Positions 23,400-32,461 of a stretch of DNA of 36,631 nucleotides are shown piece by piece (within the stretch, counting starts at the first letter, position 1; each line of letters opens with the position of its first letter). The notes beneath the pieces were generated by a model that saw only the letters and a program-made list of their open reading frames with translations, did no database searches and was not told where the DNA came from. A program made the translations under genes and the position numbers. Where the stretch lies: IMG/VR virus record IMGVR_UViG_3300044522_000339, positions 1 through 36,631 of that record. One strand, written 5' to 3'. This DNA is from a virus.

Positions 23400-24506
23400 A
23401 TGGCACACTCAAAGATTGTTGGTGGATCAACTGCCAAACGTGTTATCAACTGCCCAGGTAGTGTTGCGCTATGTAATGCTGCACCTGAAAAGCCTTCCAG
23501 CTCTTACGCTGAAGAAGGTACACTTCTCCATAACACCATCGCTGAATGGCTTGCGGATGGAAAAAAGCCTATTGCTAATGATATACTGACGCAAGACCTA
23601 ATTGACGAAAAGTACGCTGTTGCTTTGGAGTTGCTTAATGAAGTTGATCCCGAATTTGGTATGGACTATGCAGTCGAGGTTGAAGTCGGTTTCGGTGATT
23701 TCATTCCTGACGTTTTTGGTAGCTGTGATTTGCTTGGTCGTTTGGATAACCGCGCTATTGTATTGGATTGGAAGTTTGGAAATGGCGTCGTCGTAGAAGC
23801 CATAGAAAACGAACAGTTAATGTTCTACGCGGCAGCGGCCATGAGGACTGAGAAAGCGCAATGGGCGTTCAAGGATGTACAAGAAGTCGAGCTTATCATT
23901 ATCCAACCGCCAATGATTAAGCGTTGGGTAACGACAATAGAACGCATCAAAGCGTTTGAACAGCAACTGTTAAGTGCTGTTAATGCCGCGGCTAAGATTG
24001 ATGCGCCTCTCCGTGAGGGTAGCCATTGTAAATGGTGTGCGGCAAAGCCTACCTGCCCGCTAATGACAGGTGCAGTTGATCGCGCGTTGAAGGTAAAGAT
24101 AGATGCTATTGATGCACCTACTATAGATGCGTACCTTCAGAACGCTGAGATTCTGGAAGAATGGATAAAAGACTTGCGGGCTTTAGCGTTTACCATGCTA
24201 GAATCAGGTCGTGATTTACCGAATTACAAGCTTGTTGCGAAACGTGCAACACGCAAATGGTCAGATGAAGTTGAGGCTAAGAAAGCCTTGCTTGCAACTG
24301 GCTTAGCAGAATCTGATGTGATGGAATCATCGTTTATCTCTCCTGCACAGGCTGAAAAGAAGCTCAAGAAGCTTAAACAGCCCCTGCCAGAAGGATCAAC
24401 CATTTCTATCTCGTCAGGTAGCACTATGGCACATGTGGATGATCCTCGTCCTGCTGTGTTACTTATCGGGCAACAATTAAAAGTAGCCCTCACTAAACTT
24501 CAATAA
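23400..24506 (+). CDS. DUF2800 Cas4/RecB-like PD-(D/E)XK protein
   Basis: A 368-residue protein heading the replication unit. It opens with the family's AHSKIVGGSTAKRVINCPGS and AEEGTLLHNTIAEW. The nuclease core shows SCDLLGRLDNRAIVLDWKFG, with Asp123-Trp-Lys125 as the D-x-K pair, and NEQLMFYAAA as the following helix with its Gln. Cys210-x2-Cys213-x5-Cys219 (CKWCAAKPTCP), possibly with Cys20, would form a Cas4/AddB-type iron-sulfur or zinc site. The C-terminal third is helical. It is probably an exonuclease for recombination or DNA processing. An ACGAGA site precedes the ATG. Confidence 0.85.
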   Translation: MAHSKIVGGSTAKRVINCPGSVALCNAAPEKPSSSYAEEGTLLHNTIAEWLADGKKPIANDILTQDLIDEKYAVALELLNEVDPEFGMDYAVEVEVGFGDFIPDVFGSCDLLGRLDNRAIVLDWKFGNGVVVEAIENEQLMFYAAAAMRTEKAQWAFKDVQEVELIIIQPPMIKRWVTTIERIKAFEQQLLSAVNAAAKIDAPLREGSHCKWCAAKPTCPLMTGAVDRALKVKIDAIDAPTIDAYLQNAEILEEWIKDLRALAFTMLESGRDLPNYKLVAKRATRKWSDEVEAKKALLATGLAESDVMESSFISPAQAEKKLKKLKQPLPEGSTISISSGSTMAHVDDPRPAVLLIGQQLKVALTKLQ

Positions 24507-24517
24507 GGTATATTAAA

Positions 24518-25150
24518 ATGTCAAATTTAGTTGCGTTCTCTGGTTCTAACCTTCCTTCTGTTACTTCACTATCTACTGCGCTTCGTTCTTTGGAAACAGA
24601 AGTTGGTGGCTCTGCTGGCTCTGCGATTCTTAAAATGGATCGTACAGGTCATTGGGTGTTTGGTGCAGGCGAATCTGAAGTGGAATCAGACTCTACATGG
24701 GCGGTTAATCCGTTCTCTTTCGTACACGGCTTTATTTGCTGGGGTGAAGGTGAAGTTCTTGGTGAAAAGATGGTGGGCATCACTCAACCATTGCCTGAAC
24801 TTGATGCTGCACCTGCTGGCGGTAAGCGTGGATGGGAAACCCAAGTTGGCATGAGCTTAAAATGCTTGTCCGGTGAGGACAAAGGTTTGGAAGTTCGTTA
24901 CTCAACTACTTCGGTAGGTGGTAAGCGTTCCGTACAAACTCTTGCAGTTGCAATTGCTACGCAAGTAGACCTAGATCAAGGCAAACCAGTACCTGTCATC
25001 AATCTCAAGAAAGAATTTTACCAGCACAAAGCGTACGGTAAGATTTACACTCCTGTGTTTGATGTAGTTGAATGGGTTGGCTTAGATGGTGAAGCTAAGG
25101 ATGAAGATGGTGTACCAGCGGAGACTGGTAGACGTAGGCGCTCAGTCTAG
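24518..25150 (+). CDS. Putative single-stranded DNA-binding or recombination protein (210 aa)
   Basis: This lies 11 nt after the DUF2800 gene, with AAGGT upstream, and before the polymerase. The protein is beta-rich in the middle (about 40-150: GHWVFGAG, TWAVNPFSFVHGFICW, GWETQVGMSLKCL). It ends with a segment rich in Lys/Glu and a basic RRRRSV tail. Proteins in this position in related phage modules are thought to coat single-stranded DNA, an inference drawn from gene order; the classic SSB motifs are not visible. Codon use and GC match the neighbours. A hairpin that also serves the polymerase start follows the stop. Confidence 0.6.
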   Translation: MSNLVAFSGSNLPSVTSLSTALRSLETEVGGSAGSAILKMDRTGHWVFGAGESEVESDSTWAVNPFSFVHGFICWGEGEVLGEKMVGITQPLPELDAAPAGGKRGWETQVGMSLKCLSGEDKGLEVRYSTTSVGGKRSVQTLAVAIATQVDLDQGKPVPVINLKKEFYQHKAYGKIYTPVFDVVEWVGLDGEAKDEDGVPAETGRRRRSV

Positions 25151-25152
25151 TT

Positions 25153-25187
25153 AAGGAGAAGGCCCGAAAGGGCCTTTTTTAGCCATG
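25153..25187 (+). promoter_or_regulatory. Shine-Dalgarno, hairpin and AUG arrangement at the polymerase start
   Basis: AAGGAG (25153-25158) is the only ribosome site before the polymerase ATG at 25185, but it is 26 nt away. Between them lies a hairpin (25159-25176). When it is folded, only TTTTAGCC (8 nt) remains between the hairpin and ATG, a normal spacing. There is no other in-frame start before the upstream stop TAA at 25152-25154. A comparable layout is known for T4 gene 38. The folding-dependent initiation is inferred. Confidence 0.65.
25159..25180 (+). terminator. Terminator hairpin between the DNA-binding gene and polymerase
   Basis: Stem AAGGCCC (25159-25165) with GGGCCTT (25170-25176), a GAAA tetraloop, then a run of T to 25180. 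It looks like a strong intrinsic terminator, yet polymerase and primase genes follow at once, so it probably attenuates rather than blocks them. Confidence 0.8.
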
Positions 25188-27056
25188 CTATTTATCGATT
25201 TTGAAACAAAGAGCGCCTGTGACCTAAAAAAATTCGGAATTTATAATTATTGCCAAGACAGAAGCACTGAGGTGCTGTGCATGTCTTATGCTTTTGATGA
25301 TGACGTTCTAACTTGGACACCGGATCAACCATTTCCTGATGCTGTCAGAAATTACAAAGGTACCATAAGGGCGCATAACGCTACCTTTGAGCGCCTAATC
25401 TTCTGGTATGTGTTAGGCATTAACTTTAAGTTGGAACAGTTCTACTGCACAGCTACCCAAGCTAGGGCTAACTGCCTCCCCGGTAGTCTTGAAGATATTG
25501 GCAGGGCTATGTCTGCTAAGATGAAGAAAGATCATCGTGGTAAGCAGTTGATCCGCCAGTGCTGCGTTCCTCCTTATAATACTGCGTTGCTTCCAGAGCT
25601 GATTCATTATTGTGAACAAGATGTTCGGGCTATGCGTGAAATTAGTCTGGCTTTGCGTCAGTTAGATGCTGATGAACTGCTGGACTATCACATCAATGAG
25701 CGCATCAACGATAGGGGTTTGTTGATCGATGTGCCTTTATGTCATGCCGCTATTGGTTACGCTACGGCTGAATTAGAGGACATTCAAACATTAGTGAAAG
25801 ATATTACAGGTATTGCCTCGGCTAGATCGCCTAAGCTTAAACAGTGGGTTGCTGACCGGATTGATCCTGAACTGATGATGGTTGAGGATAAGTTGTCACT
25901 CAACAAAAATGTTCGTACTGCGTTACTGCAGCTTGATTTACCTGATGAAGTATTAGATGTTGTTCAGTGCATTGATGACATTAGCGCGTCATCGGTAGCT
26001 AAGTTCAAGCGTATGGGTGAGCTGGCTGATGTTGAAGATCACCGCGTTCGTGGTGCGTTTGTCTTTAATGGTGGCTCTGCTACTGGCCGTGCTTCATCGT
26101 ATGGCGTTCAGCTACAGAATATGAGTCGTGTGTGTGCTAAAGACCCTGTTGCGGTGCGTAAAGCTATGTTGGCTGGCGATTCCTTAAGCGCGTTCGGCAA
26201 TCGTGTGACAGACGTGCTGAAGGGCATGATACGTCCTGCTATAATTCCTGCACCCGGCAATGTTCTAATTGTAGCTGACTGGGCTGGTATTGAAGCACGA
26301 TGCAATCCTTGGTTGTCTAATCATGTGGCCTCGGAAGCAAAGCTGGACATCTTCCGATCCGGTGGCGATGTGTATGTCGAGAACGCTAAGTCTACGTTCA
26401 ATACGAAAGAAGTCACAAAAGAGCAACGCTTCATTGGTAAGGTGCAAGAACTCGCTTTAGGCTATTCGGGTGGAGCTGGTGCGTTTGCGTCGATGGCTAG
26501 AATCTATGGGCTTAACATGCCCGAACACCAGATCAAACGCATGATTAACGGTTGGCGTGTGGCGAACCCCTGGTGCATCCCGTACGGCCAAGATTTGGAT
26601 CGGGCTTACATGAGCGCCATGCGTCATAAAGGGCATGAGTTCTCGGCTGGGCGTGTGACTTATCTTTTTGATGGTAATCACCTCTGGTATATTTTACCGT
26701 CAGGTCGTATACTCAACTACCCATTTGCTCGGATTGAAGATGGCGCTGTCACTTACCTTAAGGCTGCGTTCAAGCCTGCTTCTGACGCTGTTGAATGGCC
26801 TCGCGCTAGATTGTGGCAAGGCATTGCACAAGAAAACTGCGCACAAGCTACTGCAAATGATTTACTAAGATACTCACTCCGGCAACTGGATGGCGTTATA
26901 GCGCACATCCATGATGAAATCGTTGTCGAGTGTAGGGAAGATGAAGCTGAAAACATAACAAAAAGAATGACATCCAGCATGTGTAGTGCGCCAGTTTGGG
27001 CTGAAGGGCTACCACTGGATGTCGAAATAGCAACAATGTATCGATATGGAAAATAA
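25185..27056 (+). CDS. Family A DNA polymerase with 3'-5' exonuclease
   Basis: A 623-residue replicative polymerase. The exonuclease domain starts at once with FIDFET (Asp5, Glu7), continues with RAHNATFE (about residue 67) and YCEQDVRAM (about 145). The polymerase domain has motif A ADWAGIEAR (catalytic Asp365), motif B with Arg415, Lys419 and Tyr427 (GYSGGAGAF) and motif C HIHDEIVVE (catalytic Asp577). The family sequence GGSATGRASSYGVQLQNMSR is also present around residue 290. It is of the short phage type, without a 5' nuclease. Translation seems to depend on the hairpin-bridged ribosome site. The end overlaps the primase-helicase by 11 nt. Confidence 0.95.
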   Translation: MLFIDFETKSACDLKKFGIYNYCQDRSTEVLCMSYAFDDDVLTWTPDQPFPDAVRNYKGTIRAHNATFERLIFWYVLGINFKLEQFYCTATQARANCLPGSLEDIGRAMSAKMKKDHRGKQLIRQCCVPPYNTALLPELIHYCEQDVRAMREISLALRQLDADELLDYHINERINDRGLLIDVPLCHAAIGYATAELEDIQTLVKDITGIASARSPKLKQWVADRIDPELMMVEDKLSLNKNVRTALLQLDLPDEVLDVVQCIDDISASSVAKFKRMGELADVEDHRVRGAFVFNGGSATGRASSYGVQLQNMSRVCAKDPVAVRKAMLAGDSLSAFGNRVTDVLKGMIRPAIIPAPGNVLIVADWAGIEARCNPWLSNHVASEAKLDIFRSGGDVYVENAKSTFNTKEVTKEQRFIGKVQELALGYSGGAGAFASMARIYGLNMPEHQIKRMINGWRVANPWCIPYGQDLDRAYMSAMRHKGHEFSAGRVTYLFDGNHLWYILPSGRILNYPFARIEDGAVTYLKAAFKPASDAVEWPRARLWQGIAQENCAQATANDLLRYSLRQLDGVIAHIHDEIVVECREDEAENITKRMTSSMCSAPVWAEGLPLDVEIATMYRYGK

Positions 27057-29355
27057 GATGAACTTTATTGACTACCTAATTAGTATAGCTCCTTCTGAAG
27101 AAACAGTATTATTTGTAAAACAAATTCCTAAACCTGACCTTTTTCACAAAGATGGCGCTCAACAATGCGCTTGGCCAGCCTACCTTCCGTCTAAGTATGA
27201 TGGTAAAGGTGCTTGGTATTGTAACACTGCCAGTTTCATCATCAAACGTTTTAAAGATGGTAAACCTGCCGCTTCTGCCGCTAATTGCGAAATGGTGGCA
27301 TTTTTAATGTTGGATGACGTTGGTACGAAATCAAAAACACCTGATCTAGCACCGACTTGGATCATGGAAACATCACCTGGCAACTACCAATACGGCTACA
27401 CCTTTAGCCTTGAAGATCAACCGACAAAAGGAAATTTCAGTGCAGCTATTAAATCTATTGCTAGTGCGGGCTATACAGACGGTGGGGCTATTAACCCTAT
27501 TCGTAATTTTCGGCTTCCAAACAGTGTTAATCATAAGCCTGATCGTGGCGGCTTTCTTTCTCGGTTAGTGTCGTTCAATCCTGAAAGAGAGTTCACCCTT
27601 CCGCAAATCTGTAACGCGTTAGGCGTTACTCCTGCTGAGGCAGACACAGCCAGCGTTAAGCGCATCGATTTGCTGGACGATGGTACTGATGACGTGCTGA
27701 CTTGGCTTGTTGGGCGTGGCGACGTGATCGAAGGTGCTAATGGTGAAGGCTGGGTTGGTGTGACGTGCATCAACGCTTCCGCTCACTCGGATGGTAATCC
27801 TATGGCGCGTTATCATCCGGTTAATCGCTCTTACATGTGCTTCCATGAGTCTTGCCAACATCTTGATAGTAAGACCTATCTTGAATGGGTGCAGGCTGAA
27901 GGTGGCCCGAAACATTCGCATGGGATTCGTGAAGAATTATTAGCCTCAGTTATGGTTGACACGTTAGCTAAACTCGAACCTACTGATATGTTTAGCCAAG
28001 ATGCGGCTAGTGCTATTGCTGAAGTCGAACGTAAGGAGTTAGGACGATTGGAAAAAAAAGATTGGTTTAGCAGATTTGCTTATATTCAAGCCGATGAGTC
28101 TTATTTTGATTTGGTTGCCAGACGTGAAGTCAGCCGATCTACTTTTAATGCGCTGTTCCGTCATCTTGAGTGCAAGTCTATTCATACAGGGCGTAAGATA
28201 GAAGCCTCAGTTTGTTTTGACGAGAACAGACAAGCGATGGGCGCACATGCTTTGGTGGGGATCACTTACGCTGCTGGGGAAACCATGCTGACCGCTCTTG
28301 ATGGTGACATGTACGGTAATCGTTGGCGTGATGCACGTCCTGATGTGACGGGTAAGGCTGGCAATGTCACTCGTTGGCTTGACCATTGCAAGAACTTAGT
28401 GCCTAATGAAGCTGAGTTGGAGCATATCTTCAACGTGATGGCTTACAAAGTCCAGAACCCTAAGATCAAGATCAATCACGCCATTCTGCATGGTGGCGAT
28501 CAAGGAGCTGGTAAGGATACGATGTATGCTCCTTTCATCTGGGCGGTGTGTGGCCCTCACTTTAAGAACCGAGGGTACATTGATAACGATTCGATGAACA
28601 GCCAGTTTGGTTACGCATTAGAGTGTGAAATCTTAGTCCTTAACGAGTTAAAAGAAACCGATGCACGAGAAAGACGAGCGTTGGCTAACAAATTGAAGCC
28701 TATCATTGCTGCACCGCCAGAAACGTTGTCTATCAACCGTAAAGGGCTACACCCATATGATATGGTGAACCGTTTGTTTGTACTTGCTTATTCAAATGAT
28801 CCAGTGCCAATTCAATTAGAGTCACAAGACAGACGATGGTTCTGCGTTTGGTCACATGCGCCTCGTATGGATTATGCAGAAGCACAATCGATGTGGGAAT
28901 GGTTTAAAACTGGTGGTGGTTATGAAGCAATTGCCAGTTGGTTGTATGCTCGTGACGTTAGCGCGTTCAATCCAGCAGCTGCACCGATGATGACTGAGTT
29001 CAAAATAAACCTAGTTGAGCAAGGCATGTCGAGCGCTGAGTCTTATCTTGTTGAGCTGATGCGTTTGCGTGTCGGTGAGTTTGCATCGGGAGTGATAGCA
29101 TCACCATTCCATGCGCTTTGTGATCGGTTGGTTAATACTGCACCGGGTAACATCAAGGTTCCTCAAGCTGCATTACTTCACGCCCTTAAAGAAGCTGGCT
29201 GGAATGATATGGGTCGCCTTAAGTCACGTGAATTTCCTAGCCAAAAACATATTTACAGCGCCCCTAATGATGAAGCAATTAACGCGCTGAGTAAGTCAGA
29301 CCTTAGAAGAATGGTTGAGCCAGACAGAAACAGAAAACTGACACTTGTGAATTGA
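27046..29355 (+). CDS. Primase-helicase (RepB-like primase fused to SF3-type helicase)
   Basis: A 769-residue fusion. The N-terminal part (about 1-200) has an archaeo-eukaryotic/RepB-type primase pattern: FLMLDDVG with Asp90-Asp91, METSPGNYQYGY, and NFRLPNSVNHKP with the basic active-site residues. A middle segment holds Cys/His residues (MCFHESCQH, about 265-275), which could bind zinc. The C-terminal part is a P-loop ATPase with Walker A GGDQGAGKDT (Lys490), EILVLNELKE as Walker B, and NRLFVLAYSNDPVPI as motif C/sensor, typical of DUF5906/SF3 helicases. A second ATG at 27058 is also possible. It opens the duplex and primes for the polymerase upstream. Confidence 0.88.
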   Translation: MENKMNFIDYLISIAPSEETVLFVKQIPKPDLFHKDGAQQCAWPAYLPSKYDGKGAWYCNTASFIIKRFKDGKPAASAANCEMVAFLMLDDVGTKSKTPDLAPTWIMETSPGNYQYGYTFSLEDQPTKGNFSAAIKSIASAGYTDGGAINPIRNFRLPNSVNHKPDRGGFLSRLVSFNPEREFTLPQICNALGVTPAEADTASVKRIDLLDDGTDDVLTWLVGRGDVIEGANGEGWVGVTCINASAHSDGNPMARYHPVNRSYMCFHESCQHLDSKTYLEWVQAEGGPKHSHGIREELLASVMVDTLAKLEPTDMFSQDAASAIAEVERKELGRLEKKDWFSRFAYIQADESYFDLVARREVSRSTFNALFRHLECKSIHTGRKIEASVCFDENRQAMGAHALVGITYAAGETMLTALDGDMYGNRWRDARPDVTGKAGNVTRWLDHCKNLVPNEAELEHIFNVMAYKVQNPKIKINHAILHGGDQGAGKDTMYAPFIWAVCGPHFKNRGYIDNDSMNSQFGYALECEILVLNELKETDARERRALANKLKPIIAAPPETLSINRKGLHPYDMVNRLFVLAYSNDPVPIQLESQDRRWFCVWSHAPRMDYAEAQSMWEWFKTGGGYEAIASWLYARDVSAFNPAAAPMMTEFKINLVEQGMSSAESYLVELMRLRVGEFASGVIASPFHALCDRLVNTAPGNIKVPQAALLHALKEAGWNDMGRLKSREFPSQKHIYSAPNDEAINALSKSDLRRMVEPDRNRKLTLVN

Positions 29356-30092: not shown

Positions 30093-30688
30093 TTTTTTAT
30101 CTCGTTTATGTAAATAGTATCATTCTTGGAATAACAAACCATGCAGTCAATACATTTTGAATGACAATTGATAGTTTCTTTGGTGTTTTTATTGTGAGCT
30201 GTAAATACCTTATCAAAATACATAGGTAATTTTTCAATTTTACCGATAACAGCACTGCTAAAAATAAAAGATAGATTGTCCGGTTTTACGTTACCAGCTT
30301 TGAAATATGCGTTCACGATGTCTTTTCTTTTTGTCCATAAAGTGAAAAAGGTTAAGGGGTTGTGGGCCGCTATAGTTGCGTAATTCTCTAAGTGTTGAAG
30401 ATTGATTAATTCACCTAATGAATGGAACCTGAAAGCAATCGCATTTATAACGGGAATTAATCTAATAGGCAATGGTGATTCTGATAATAACGGCCCATTC
30501 TTTGAAATAGCGATATCTAAGTTTTTATACCTTTTTTGCATTAAGGCCGCATAACATTCTTGGCAAATGATACTGATATCAGTTTTTTTCATCATTTTAA
30601 TACAAAACTCATTTGTTAAAGTACTTGTATTGAGTGACTGGAAGCCGGCCAATTTATGAGATGAAGAATGGTTTGTAATATGTAACAT
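30089..30688 (-). CDS. GP88-family protein (199 aa)
   Basis: The protein resembles the 'gene product 88' domain (PF17338 type) found across many phages and some plasmids. Visible family features are a Cys pair near the start (ICQECYAALM, about 41-46), FRFHSLGELINLQHLENYAT around residue 87-106, and ALTFFTLWTKR-like sequence (here PLTFFTLWTKRKDIV). A C-terminal cluster CHSKCIDCMVCY (about 177-188) could bind a metal or iron-sulfur cluster. The molecular function of the family is unknown. It is the largest gene of the AT-rich unit. The start at 30688 is one of several possible (internal Met at 32 and 33). Confidence 0.75.
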   Translation of the reverse strand: MLHITNHSSSHKLAGFQSLNTSTLTNEFCIKMMKKTDISIICQECYAALMQKRYKNLDIAISKNGPLLSESPLPIRLIPVINAIAFRFHSLGELINLQHLENYATIAAHNPLTFFTLWTKRKDIVNAYFKAGNVKPDNLSFIFSSAVIGKIEKLPMYFDKVFTAHNKNTKETINCHSKCIDCMVCYSKNDTIYINEIKK

Positions 30689-30743
30689 GATAGATTACCT
30701 TTAGTTTAGTTTATTAGTCATCGATCCGATCTTTAGTATCGCT

Positions 30744-30914
30744 TTAATTTAAAATTTCAATTGGCTTTCCTGTAACTTCAATTGGAAATCCATTTTCATC
30801 ATGTAAATGTACGTTAATTACATCAAAGTCCATGGGACTTTGCCCATCTGTTGTAGAGTCATCAACTGTTCCAATTGTGCCGTTTTCTATTAAAACCGTA
30901 TAGATAACATTCAT
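30744..30914 (-). CDS. Small acidic hypothetical protein (56 aa)
   Basis: Start chosen at the ATG at 30914 (MNVIYTVLIENGTIGTVDDS), with GGGA 7 nt upstream; the TTG at 30926 is less likely. The protein is acidic, beta-prone (VINVHLHDENGFPIEV) and soluble. No family is recognised. It follows the 26-residue membrane peptide with a 1-nt gap. Confidence 0.6.
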   Translation of the reverse strand: MNVIYTVLIENGTIGTVDDSTTDGQSPMDFDVINVHLHDENGFPIEVTGKPIEILN

Positions 30915-30915
30915 T

Positions 30916-30996
30916 TTATATCCCAAAATAGTTTATTAAGTTCTCTACTAGCGCAACAAATAGCACTAGCAAGCCGACTGTTATTATCTGATTCAT
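30916..30996 (-). CDS. Tiny membrane peptide (26 aa)
   Basis: The frame runs from the ATG at 30996, in an ATGA overlap with the stop of the 50-residue gene, to TAA at 30916-30918. The product MNQIITVGLLVLFVALVENL plus six residues is a single hydrophobic helix with a polar start and end. It is extremely short, so the call depends on its exact coupling at both ends. Confidence 0.4.
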   Translation of the reverse strand: MNQIITVGLLVLFVALVENLINYFGI

Positions 30997-31145
30997 AGTT
31001 TTAATAAAATTAAAGGTGAAAAAGATATTACAGCCAGTATTAAAAGCATACTGTTAATAACAACCATTTGCGGCAATGACAAGATAATCATCGTTAAAAT
31101 TAAAGATATTATTAAGATTAAGAATATTAAAATTAGTGTTTTCAT
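30993..31145 (-). CDS. Small two-helix membrane protein (50 aa)
   Basis: First gene of the minus-strand AT-rich unit. The ATG at 31145 has AGAGA about 8 nt upstream. The 50 residues are almost wholly hydrophobic: helix 1 at about 4-24 (LILIFLILIISLILTMIILS), a PQ turn, and helix 2 at about 28-48, ending LKL. It would sit in the inner membrane. A holin or superinfection-exclusion role is conceivable, but there is no specific support; it lies far from the lysis cassette and behind its own promoter. Confidence 0.55.
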   Translation of the reverse strand: MKTLILIFLILIISLILTMIILSLPQMVVINSMLLILAVISFSPLILLKL

Positions 31146-31190
31146 GTTTTTTCTCTTTTATGTTTCCAGGCAATCTGAAAACTTAACTAT

Positions 31191-31219
31191 AGATTAAAAC
31201 TATTTAGTTTTAATGTCAA
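31191..31219 (-). promoter_or_regulatory. Minus-strand promoter with embedded palindrome
   Basis: On the minus strand TTGACA (31219-31214) is followed by a 17-nt spacer and TAATCT (31196-31191). The -35 is perfect and the -10 matches 3 of 6. A perfect inverted repeat, ATTAAAACTA and TAGTTTTAAT separated by TT (31193-31214), fills the spacer and touches both elements. A dimer bound there would block polymerase, so this looks like an operator. It lies 46 nt upstream of the first minus-strand ATG. Confidence 0.65.
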
Positions 31220-31440
31220 TAAATCTTTTACAAATATTTGTGGATAAAGTGTATAGAGCTGTGTATATGATTTTCAAGCAGTTTTGTACACTTCATCCCC
31301 TTTATTGACGGGGCGTTGAGAGCTGTGTGTATAATATGTATTATTAGTTATTATAAGGTTTATAAAATAATATAATATAATAGTTATAATATTACCGGGA
31401 AAAAATGTTACCAGCCACCGACTAAAAAACAGTGAGAACA
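31220..31440. other. AT-rich non-coding region with GTGTATA-type repeats
   Basis: No gene is supported. Recurring GTGTATA elements lie at 31249-31255, 31261-31267 and 31327-31333; the last two follow AGCTGTG or AGCTGTGTG. TTGACG (31305-31310) and TATAAT (31330-31335) form a plus-strand promoter candidate with a long 19-nt spacer. Bases 31330-31396 are almost purely A and T and could melt easily, as in a DNA unwinding element. Confidence 0.45.
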
Positions 31441-31602
31441 TTATGCACAATGTACACAAATGCCAATTTAAGCACTGATGCAAGGATCGCAAATAACCCT
31501 TGATGTGTATATTGTGCATAACTATTTTTAAGGTTATGCACAATATACACAATTCAAAAGTGTGTACTAAATCGTGACATTTTATAAAGCACCGATGCAA
31601 AA
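31441..31602. repeat. Iteron-like repeats and 19-bp inverted repeat
   Basis: Element A, TTATGCACAATRTACACAA (R is A or G), occurs at 31441-31459 and 31534-31552. A third copy in inverted orientation (31504-31522) forms a hairpin with 31533-31551: 19-bp arms, 10-nt loop. Element B, AAGCACYGATGCAA (Y is C or T), follows each direct copy of A, at 31470-31483 and 31587-31600. The A-B order occurs twice. Such iteration is typical of binding sites for an initiator or repressor. No protein-coding use is likely. Confidence 0.75.
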
Positions 31603-31966
31603 CAATAATGATAACAATAACTTGCGATGCTATTCAAGTCCTGCCTCCGTTCTTGAATGGTTACACAGCTCAATACTCAAACCGTAAACTGTATGTAATT
31701 CAATAGCTTAGACTAGAATGGTGTGCCATAACATAACCAGGCGTGTTTTTTGGGGGGGGTATAGGGGGATTTTGAACCGTCCGTTGCCCATGTACACCCC
31801 CCGCAGTAAAATTTTTTTTTAAAATAATTAGACCCCTTAGTAAAATTTTTTTTAAAAATGAAAACCCCCCCCAAAAAAAAGTTTTTAAAAAATTTCAGTG
31901 AACATGTAAAAAACTTTACTACTAAATGGAAATGATGTTAAATACAACTTTACACAAGGACAGACG
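31603..31966. other. Gene-free stretch with long homopolymer runs before terminase
   Basis: I see no gene. T6G8 (31746-31759) and C8A8 (31865-31880) are complementary over 14 bases at a distance of about 105 bp. Between them AGTAAAAT8-9AAAA occurs twice (31805-31824 and 31839-31858). A weak plus-strand promoter candidate for the packaging genes is TTTACT (31915-31920), 17 nt, TTAAAT (31938-31943). Run lengths may be affected by sequencing error. Confidence 0.5.
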
Positions 31967-32461
31967 ATGATTTCGATCCCCTTCACTCCAAGAGAAGTGC
32001 AAGCCACCGAATGGCGTTTACAACAAATATATGACGCTGCCGCCTTGGGGCTGAAAGGTGACAAGCTTGCCTTAGCCGCAGGAATGTTACCTTCCGAATA
32101 TCGACAGTTATGCCAGCTCGACCCTGTTGCTGAAATGGCAGCGTTGAAAGGCGCAGCTGATGGAGAATTGGAAGCGTCAACCCAGTTAAGAGAAGCTGCC
32201 AGAAACGGGGACGCTAAAGCGGCGCTATCAATACTGCAACACGCTCATGGTTGGACTGCCAAGCAGGAAATATCCATGTCAATTGAAACTATCAATATAC
32301 AATCTGCCCTAGATGAAGCGCGTAGCCGCGTCATAGAAGGTACGCACGTTACCCACACGCTTACACCCACCAAGGACATTAATGGCACAACAACCAATAT
32401 ACCGACCAGACGAAGAGCAAACGCTGATGGTGGAGTTATGGTCGCCAAAGATAGCGGATGA
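31967..32461 (+). CDS. Terminase small subunit
   Basis: A 164-residue protein expected to recognise the packaging site and load the large subunit. AAGGA lies 8 nt before the ATG. Residues about 5-50 are helical, with LGLKGDKLALAAGMLPSEYRQLCQ as a helix-turn-helix-like region. The helical middle (ELEASTQLREAARNGDAKAALSILQHAHGW) is the usual oligomerisation region ending in the conserved W-x-x-KQE step before the C-terminal tail. Similar order occurs in phage small terminases of the HTH type. The C-terminal 80 nt overlap the large-subunit gene in another frame. Confidence 0.82.
   Translation: MISIPFTPREVQATEWRLQQIYDAAALGLKGDKLALAAGMLPSEYRQLCQLDPVAEMAALKGAADGELEASTQLREAARNGDAKAALSILQHAHGWTAKQEISMSIETINIQSALDEARSRVIEGTHVTHTLTPTKDINGTTTNIPTRRRANADGGVMVAKDSG

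Follow-up and report, generated by a model that had tools for sequence, protein, structure and literature searches.

The window—the whole stretch of DNA analysed here, a 36,631-base IMG/VR virus record from a freshwater phage—contains a DUF2800/PD-(D/E)XK nuclease gene (23400-24506), an open reading frame for a 210-aa protein that we call SSB-like (24518-25150, + strand), a gene for a 623-aa family A DNA polymerase with an N-terminal exonuclease motif (25185-27056, + strand; PF00476, 5e-18; phrog_17, 1e-89), and a gene for a primase-like protein (27046-29355). Here we focus on the junction between the second and third of these, which reads TAG-TT-AAGGAG-AAGGCCC-GAAA-GGGCCTT-TTTTAGCC-ATG on the + strand. 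The stop codon of the SSB-like gene (TAG, 25148-25150) is followed after 2 nt by the Shine-Dalgarno (SD) sequence AAGGAG (25153-25158) and then directly by a 7-bp hairpin (25159-25176; 5' arm 25159-25165, GAAA loop 25166-25169, 3' arm 25170-25176), which begins 8 nt past the stop codon and has a core fold of -12.5 kcal/mol. The T-run of this terminator-like structure (25175-25180) extends from the 3' arm into the 8-nt spacer TTTTAGCC (25177-25184), which separates the folded hairpin from the polymerase ATG (25185-25187).

AAGGAG is a strong site, with an aSD duplex of about -9 kcal/mol (-9.2), and there is no other ribosome site in the last 8 nt before the polymerase ATG. The distance from AAGGAG to that ATG is 26 nt, or 8 nt without the 18-nt hairpin; for most other genes of the window the SD-to-start distance is 4-9 nt. 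The polymerase frame has a TAA stop at 25152-25154 and no ATG, GTG or TTG from there to 25185; the start is bounded on the downstream side too, by the invariant residues D5 and E7 of the exonuclease motif. A start upstream of 25185 and a fusion of the polymerase to the SSB-like frame are both ruled out by the in-frame stop and the invariant motif. A promoter-like match at 25219-25247 was likewise rejected, being coding sequence (Gly-Ile-Tyr-Asn-Tyr) within the polymerase. The first-pass annotation, made from the letters of the window, had described this element, and direct reading of the sequence shows its coordinates, spacing, frame and start-codon arguments all to be correct; the hairpin-containing junction element is thereby confirmed as real.

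Folding of the 40-nt element reaches -17.6 kcal/mol, whereas shuffled versions average -9.4 (z -3.3; 2 of 200 shuffles as good). The first-pass annotation was right about the hairpin and overlooked how far it reaches: the predicted minimum-energy fold extends below the 7-bp core, with GGAG (25155-25158) pairing with the UUUU of the T-run (25177-25180), and the GGAG bases are 0.01-0.32 unpaired in the predicted ensemble. The hairpin should therefore, according to the model, partly occlude the very SD that it bridges. Opening the SD is predicted to cost 3.9 kcal/mol, compared with the 9.2 kcal/mol gained by aSD pairing and a cost of about 20 kcal/mol for melting the whole element, so AAGGAG should still be able to serve while the core keeps its fold. 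Scanning the window and the junctions against Rfam returned no family at the junctions; elsewhere in the window, an Rfam microRNA model matched 31494-31563, within a long non-coding stretch (30688-31967), and this match was dismissed since the sequence resembles an inverted repeat and is hit in both orientations.

The name SSB-like is weakly supported, by a predicted structure. An AF2 model of medium quality (pLDDT 68, one of five) has SSB OB folds as all of its top PDB fold matches, at E values of 6e-3 or higher; an earlier model built from 4 sequences (pLDDT 31) was discarded. The protein gave no Pfam family and no match in a PDB sequence search. PHROG 9528, labelled 'nucleotidyltransferase', matches 24518-25150 (E 8e-18); an SSB-like OB protein is favoured by both the gene order and the fold matches, and it is possible that the PHROG label is a misannotation.

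Junction states among relatives

A polymerase search recovered 34 loci at 81-97% identity and a profile search about 60 more at 62-64%, and the relatives that were read fall into six junction states, A to F. Group A (18 loci and the window) has AAGGAG, the hairpin, T6-7, then AGCC, AGCT or AACT, and the ATG, with a spacing of 8-9 nt kept. Group B (6 loci) keeps the hairpin and T-run and lacks AAGGAG; a weaker site, TTTAGGA, follows the T-run near the ATG. Group C has an HNH gene inserted past the T-run, the polymerase having its own start region, and group D (63% identity) has the hairpin without a T-run, then typically GGAAAGGAGACGCCA-ATG. In group E a long structured RNA replaces the hairpin, and in group F a TGATG overlap joins the upstream gene and the polymerase.

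The ribosome site lies either 5' or 3' of the hairpin—never both, never neither—in all 25 distinct junctions of groups A, B and D. In each of the 10 distinct junctions of group A, a site scoring -7.8 kcal/mol or lower precedes the hairpin and no site follows it; groups B (5 distinct) and D (10 distinct) have no 5' site (0 to -2.9 kcal/mol) and a post-hairpin site of -4.0 to -10.3 kcal/mol. Given this mutual exclusion, AAGGAG very probably serves as the ribosome site of the polymerase gene in group A, used across the folded hairpin; it is identical throughout the group while nearby bases vary, and with 8-9 nt left beyond the hairpin, bridging would be the simplest mechanism. In the polymerase tree the junction types are mixed, with group A scattered and at least 3 changes forced for type B, which argues for repeated switching, by mutation or recombination, rather than one frozen ancestor.

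The group A stem is paired in 100% of cells across 9 distinct sequences, and its only changes are one compensated C-G/G-C swap (2 of 9 rows) and one change from A-U to G-U. The covariation score was reached by 11 of 500 shuffles; covariation here is real but thin. The first-pass annotation had taken AAGGAG as the polymerase site, bridged to the ATG by the hairpin, and had pointed to compensatory stem changes in relatives as a check. Both hold in the relatives: AAGGAG is kept only where there is no post-hairpin site, and every pair survives the changes seen. Relatives with a normal site elsewhere were also found, but their stem is kept rather than degraded, so a hairpin role independent of bridging should exist too.

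HNH homing-type genes lie right after the junction terminator in several loci (L001:1882-2010, L002:1826-1960, L005:1817-1960, L020 and L130:2315-2460). Ahead of them come a TATAAT-like sequence, directly against the T-run, and a segment of about 100 nt that has paired arms (TTGGCGG/CCGCCAA; AAGCCTTGT/ACAAGGCTT) and finishes in a T-run of its own; this may be a small RNA equipped with both promoter and terminator. No tRNA was found in the inserted segments. In other loci the polymerase match is about 650-900 nt longer than in relatives (L027:601-3366, L029:344-2986, L030 and L031:2501-5146, L032:2501-5035), which suggests that the gene is interrupted by an insert—an intron, intein or endonuclease gene.

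The group E RNA is absent from the window. It is about 105 nt long with a conserved core, GTTAAGYCAGCRTTCRAGGATG...TTTTCTGGYTTTC...ACCAAATYGAG, and at least 120 stretches appeared in the scan, of which 93 distinct copies were read. It often lies 11-33 nt past an early gene, SSB-like or otherwise, and directly ahead of a polymerase or exonuclease gene; examples from freshwater phages are L093:2897-3000, L129:2898-3000 and L134:2612-2730, with about 90 more copies in L134-L253. For 30 proposed pairs, the pseudoknot AAGCCAG/CTGGCTT among them, pairing is standard in 97.3% of cells across 15 diverse copies, and 17 of the 30 pairs change on both sides. The covariation score is 0.561; shuffles give 0.224, with 0 of 500 as high, and slid versions reach no more than 0.14. 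The loci tested gave no Rfam 15 match at E values up to 1. The group E element is an undescribed, strongly covarying pseudoknotted RNA.

The same arrangement at other genes

We scanned IMG/VR with the pattern AGGAG-N4-9-GAAA or TTCG-N4-9-TTTTTT-NNNN-ATG, filtered for a real hairpin, and recovered the window's clade along with seven unrelated SD-terminator-ATG junctions with an open reading frame. One of these (L328/L284) has a major head protein followed by a 51-aa frame, with T6-7 present and the small gene matching phrog_829 in L328; a second (L309) has a 463-aa major-head-like protein followed by 214 aa, and a third (L302) has a 467-aa head maturation protease downstream. The others have frames of 128 aa (L341/L323), 62-65 aa (L388/L369/L380), 928 aa (L387) and 212 aa (L285/L271). 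The start codons in L302, L309, L341, L387, L388 and L285 are putative, as read from these loci alone. The start in L328 is supported by annotated genes or open frames at the same ATG in Salmonella phage FSL SP-016, Escherichia phage JLK-2012 and E. coli prophages.

Relatives of L328 keep the order of SD, immediate hairpin, 6-9 nt and ATG. The capsid junction thus resembles the window in having SD-hairpin-ATG with a stem that varies and pairing that is kept: its stems are replaced wholesale (GCGGGG/CCCCGC, GGCGGGG/CCCCGCC, ACGGGAGGC/GCCTCCCGT and GCGGGAGGC/GCTTCCCGC), and conservation of pairing rather than of sequence appears much stronger here than in group A. It differs in that the T-run, present as T6-7 in L328 and L284, is gone in the E. 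coli and Salmonella members. In these (L489-L495 and L613-L621) the major capsid gene is followed by GGAGG, a perfect 7-9-bp hairpin, 6-9 nt and the ATG of a gene of about 55-74 aa; as read from sequence, this is a split ribosome site without a terminator. Among 5,426 complete E. coli genomes, 1,241 contain the junction, in the form SD-hairpin-9 nt-ATG, with coverage of a 151-nt query at 80% or above, and its recurrence in common E. coli prophages makes the arrangement directly testable. A Rhizobium relative (RHph_X2_26) has terminator, SD and ATG, which is the group B state. Since the capsid and polymerase junctions show the same states, these arose at two unrelated junctions.

The SD-hairpin-ATG arrangement is rare. 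In a limited sample of 4.15 Mb of phage loci, AAGGAG-hairpin-ATG was absent beyond the seeds and the fetched capsid family, and a general excess in phage DNA was rejected accordingly. Of 42 distinct matches to a composition-matched control, GGAAG with a TTCG loop, 2 had a hairpin; for AGGAG the figure was 8 of 33, though these numbers are small. A scan of bacterial genomes for TTCG loops gave 14 hairpins in 115 distinct matches among the matches listed, none of which had both AAGGAG outside the stem and an open reading frame 50 aa or longer. We also observed two loci (L393, - strand, 5680; L418:5678-5711) in which AGGAGG lies inside a terminator stem between a primase gene and a gene for a protein with an acidic DDFDL tail (SSB-like); there the ribosome site and the terminator should exclude each other.

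Interpretation and comparison with known systems

The best overall explanation, to which we give a probability of roughly two in three, is a split ribosome-binding site whose hairpin can also release some RNA polymerases. The 30S subunit would pair with AAGGAG while the stable hairpin core remains folded, which would leave the AUG about 8 nt away, at an ordinary spacing. That the site is hairpin-bridged in the manner of T4 genes 38 and 25 is the firmer part of this explanation, and we consider it likely; we infer bridging as a physical mechanism from the anatomy, the conservation, the compensated stem change and the mutual exclusion with a downstream ribosome site. Hairpin conservation is not accounted for by bridging alone, as groups B and D keep the hairpin where bridging is unneeded. 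A second role is likely, in forming the 3' end of the SSB message or protecting it, whether or not transcription terminates there.

Termination is the less certain part. The first-pass annotation had expected the hairpin and T-run to terminate transcription, and in both group A and group B the stem and T-run do receive a positive terminator score; the score is negative in group D, where the hairpin has no T-run, and the position of the hairpin, 8 nt past the stop codon, also weighs against the claim. A scan of the window for terminators did not list the junction hairpin, probably because the stem extension consumed the T-run. In published tests, the translating ribosome suppressed lambda tR2 almost completely when this terminator stood a few nucleotides past a stop codon, and its activity came back once translation was removed (PMC4824070). 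Termination here is therefore expected to depend on translation of the SSB-like gene, and is probably tuned by it.

We put active termination by the T-run, combined with the bridged site, at slightly worse than even odds. Were it active, the hairpin and T-run would release some RNA polymerases past the SSB-like gene, most strongly on transcripts whose SSB-like gene is poorly translated, and fewer transcripts would enter the polymerase gene. It is plausible, as the first-pass annotation had proposed, that the hairpin might in this way set the ratio of SSB to polymerase; this ratio effect, like any termination, is an inference. A more speculative extension, which we hold to be rather unlikely, is a translation-sensed valve: translation of the SSB-like gene would suppress the terminator, RNA polymerase would read on, and the ribosome site would work via the refolded hairpin, while falling translation would stop transcription before the polymerase gene. 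Phages would have reached such junctions several times, the known cases lying downstream of genes for abundant proteins, for instance the major capsid protein.

Three other explanations must be weighed against the split site. The hairpin could chiefly protect or define the 3' end of the SSB mRNA, as a terminator or a 3' exonuclease block, with the hairpin's place between the SD and the AUG a by-product of a deletion in which the downstream site was lost. This would account for a hairpin kept in A, B and D whether bridging or not, for group D with neither T-run nor positive terminator score, and for the different structured RNA that another lineage has in the same place; however, AAGGAG is absent in B and D and universal in A, which argues that it was acquired or kept in A for translation across the hairpin, and we think this explanation doubtful. 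Somewhat less probable again is termination-reinitiation, in which AAGGAG retains ribosomes that have finished the SSB-like gene, so that they start again at the AUG, with the hairpin either shortening their walk or being irrelevant to translation. The stop codon and SD are nearly adjacent, and the TGATG overlap in other relatives suggests that coupling is normal at this junction, yet direct initiation fits just as well with the strict 8-9 nt beyond the hairpin and with the capsid family, which keeps its SD-hairpin-ATG geometry despite a variable stop-to-SD distance. Reinitiation and direct initiation across the hairpin are not mutually exclusive. Finally, some bacterial genes initiate translation without an SD, and GGAG can pair with the T-run, so that AAGGAG might be a chance purine tract lengthening the terminator stem; the complementary SD positions across junctions, the invariance of AAGGAG amid varying bases, and the great rarity elsewhere in the 4.15 Mb of phage loci of AAGGAG next to a hairpin before an ATG make this very improbable.

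The split site, if it works as proposed, has consequences for annotation: gene finders and expression models that need an SD within about 15 nt would misread such junctions, as would models that equate a terminator with the end of an operon. As far as we could find, hairpin-bridged ribosome sites have so far rested on two T4 genes, and the largely open-access literature searched contained no survey of split ribosome sites.

Known intrinsic intra-operon terminators (the lambda tR2 tests and the pyrBI attenuator, PMC4824070) share with the window a GC hairpin and T-run near a stop codon. They differ in that the next ribosome site is normally 3' of the terminator, as in group B and Rhizobium phage RHph_X2_26, whereas here it is 5'. 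The closest likeness is to T4 genes 38 and 25, for which hairpin-bridged split ribosome sites have been shown experimentally (Nivinskas 1999; Malys and Nivinskas 2009; summarised in PMC3014915). That summary gives SD-AUG distances of 22 and 27 nt, shortened by the hairpin to 5 and 11 nt, compared with 26 and 8 nt here, and indicates an arrangement restricted to lineages within a phage group, as it is here (PMC3014915). In contrast, it does not describe those sites as having a T-run of the kind present here (PMC3014915). The window differs further in that its stem can extend into the SD, a gap of 2 nt separates the upstream stop codon from the SD, and the gene served is a replication gene after an SSB-like gene. 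The arrangement has thus been traced in a phage clade unrelated to T4, with gain and loss visible in sequence and with a terminator-like T-run.
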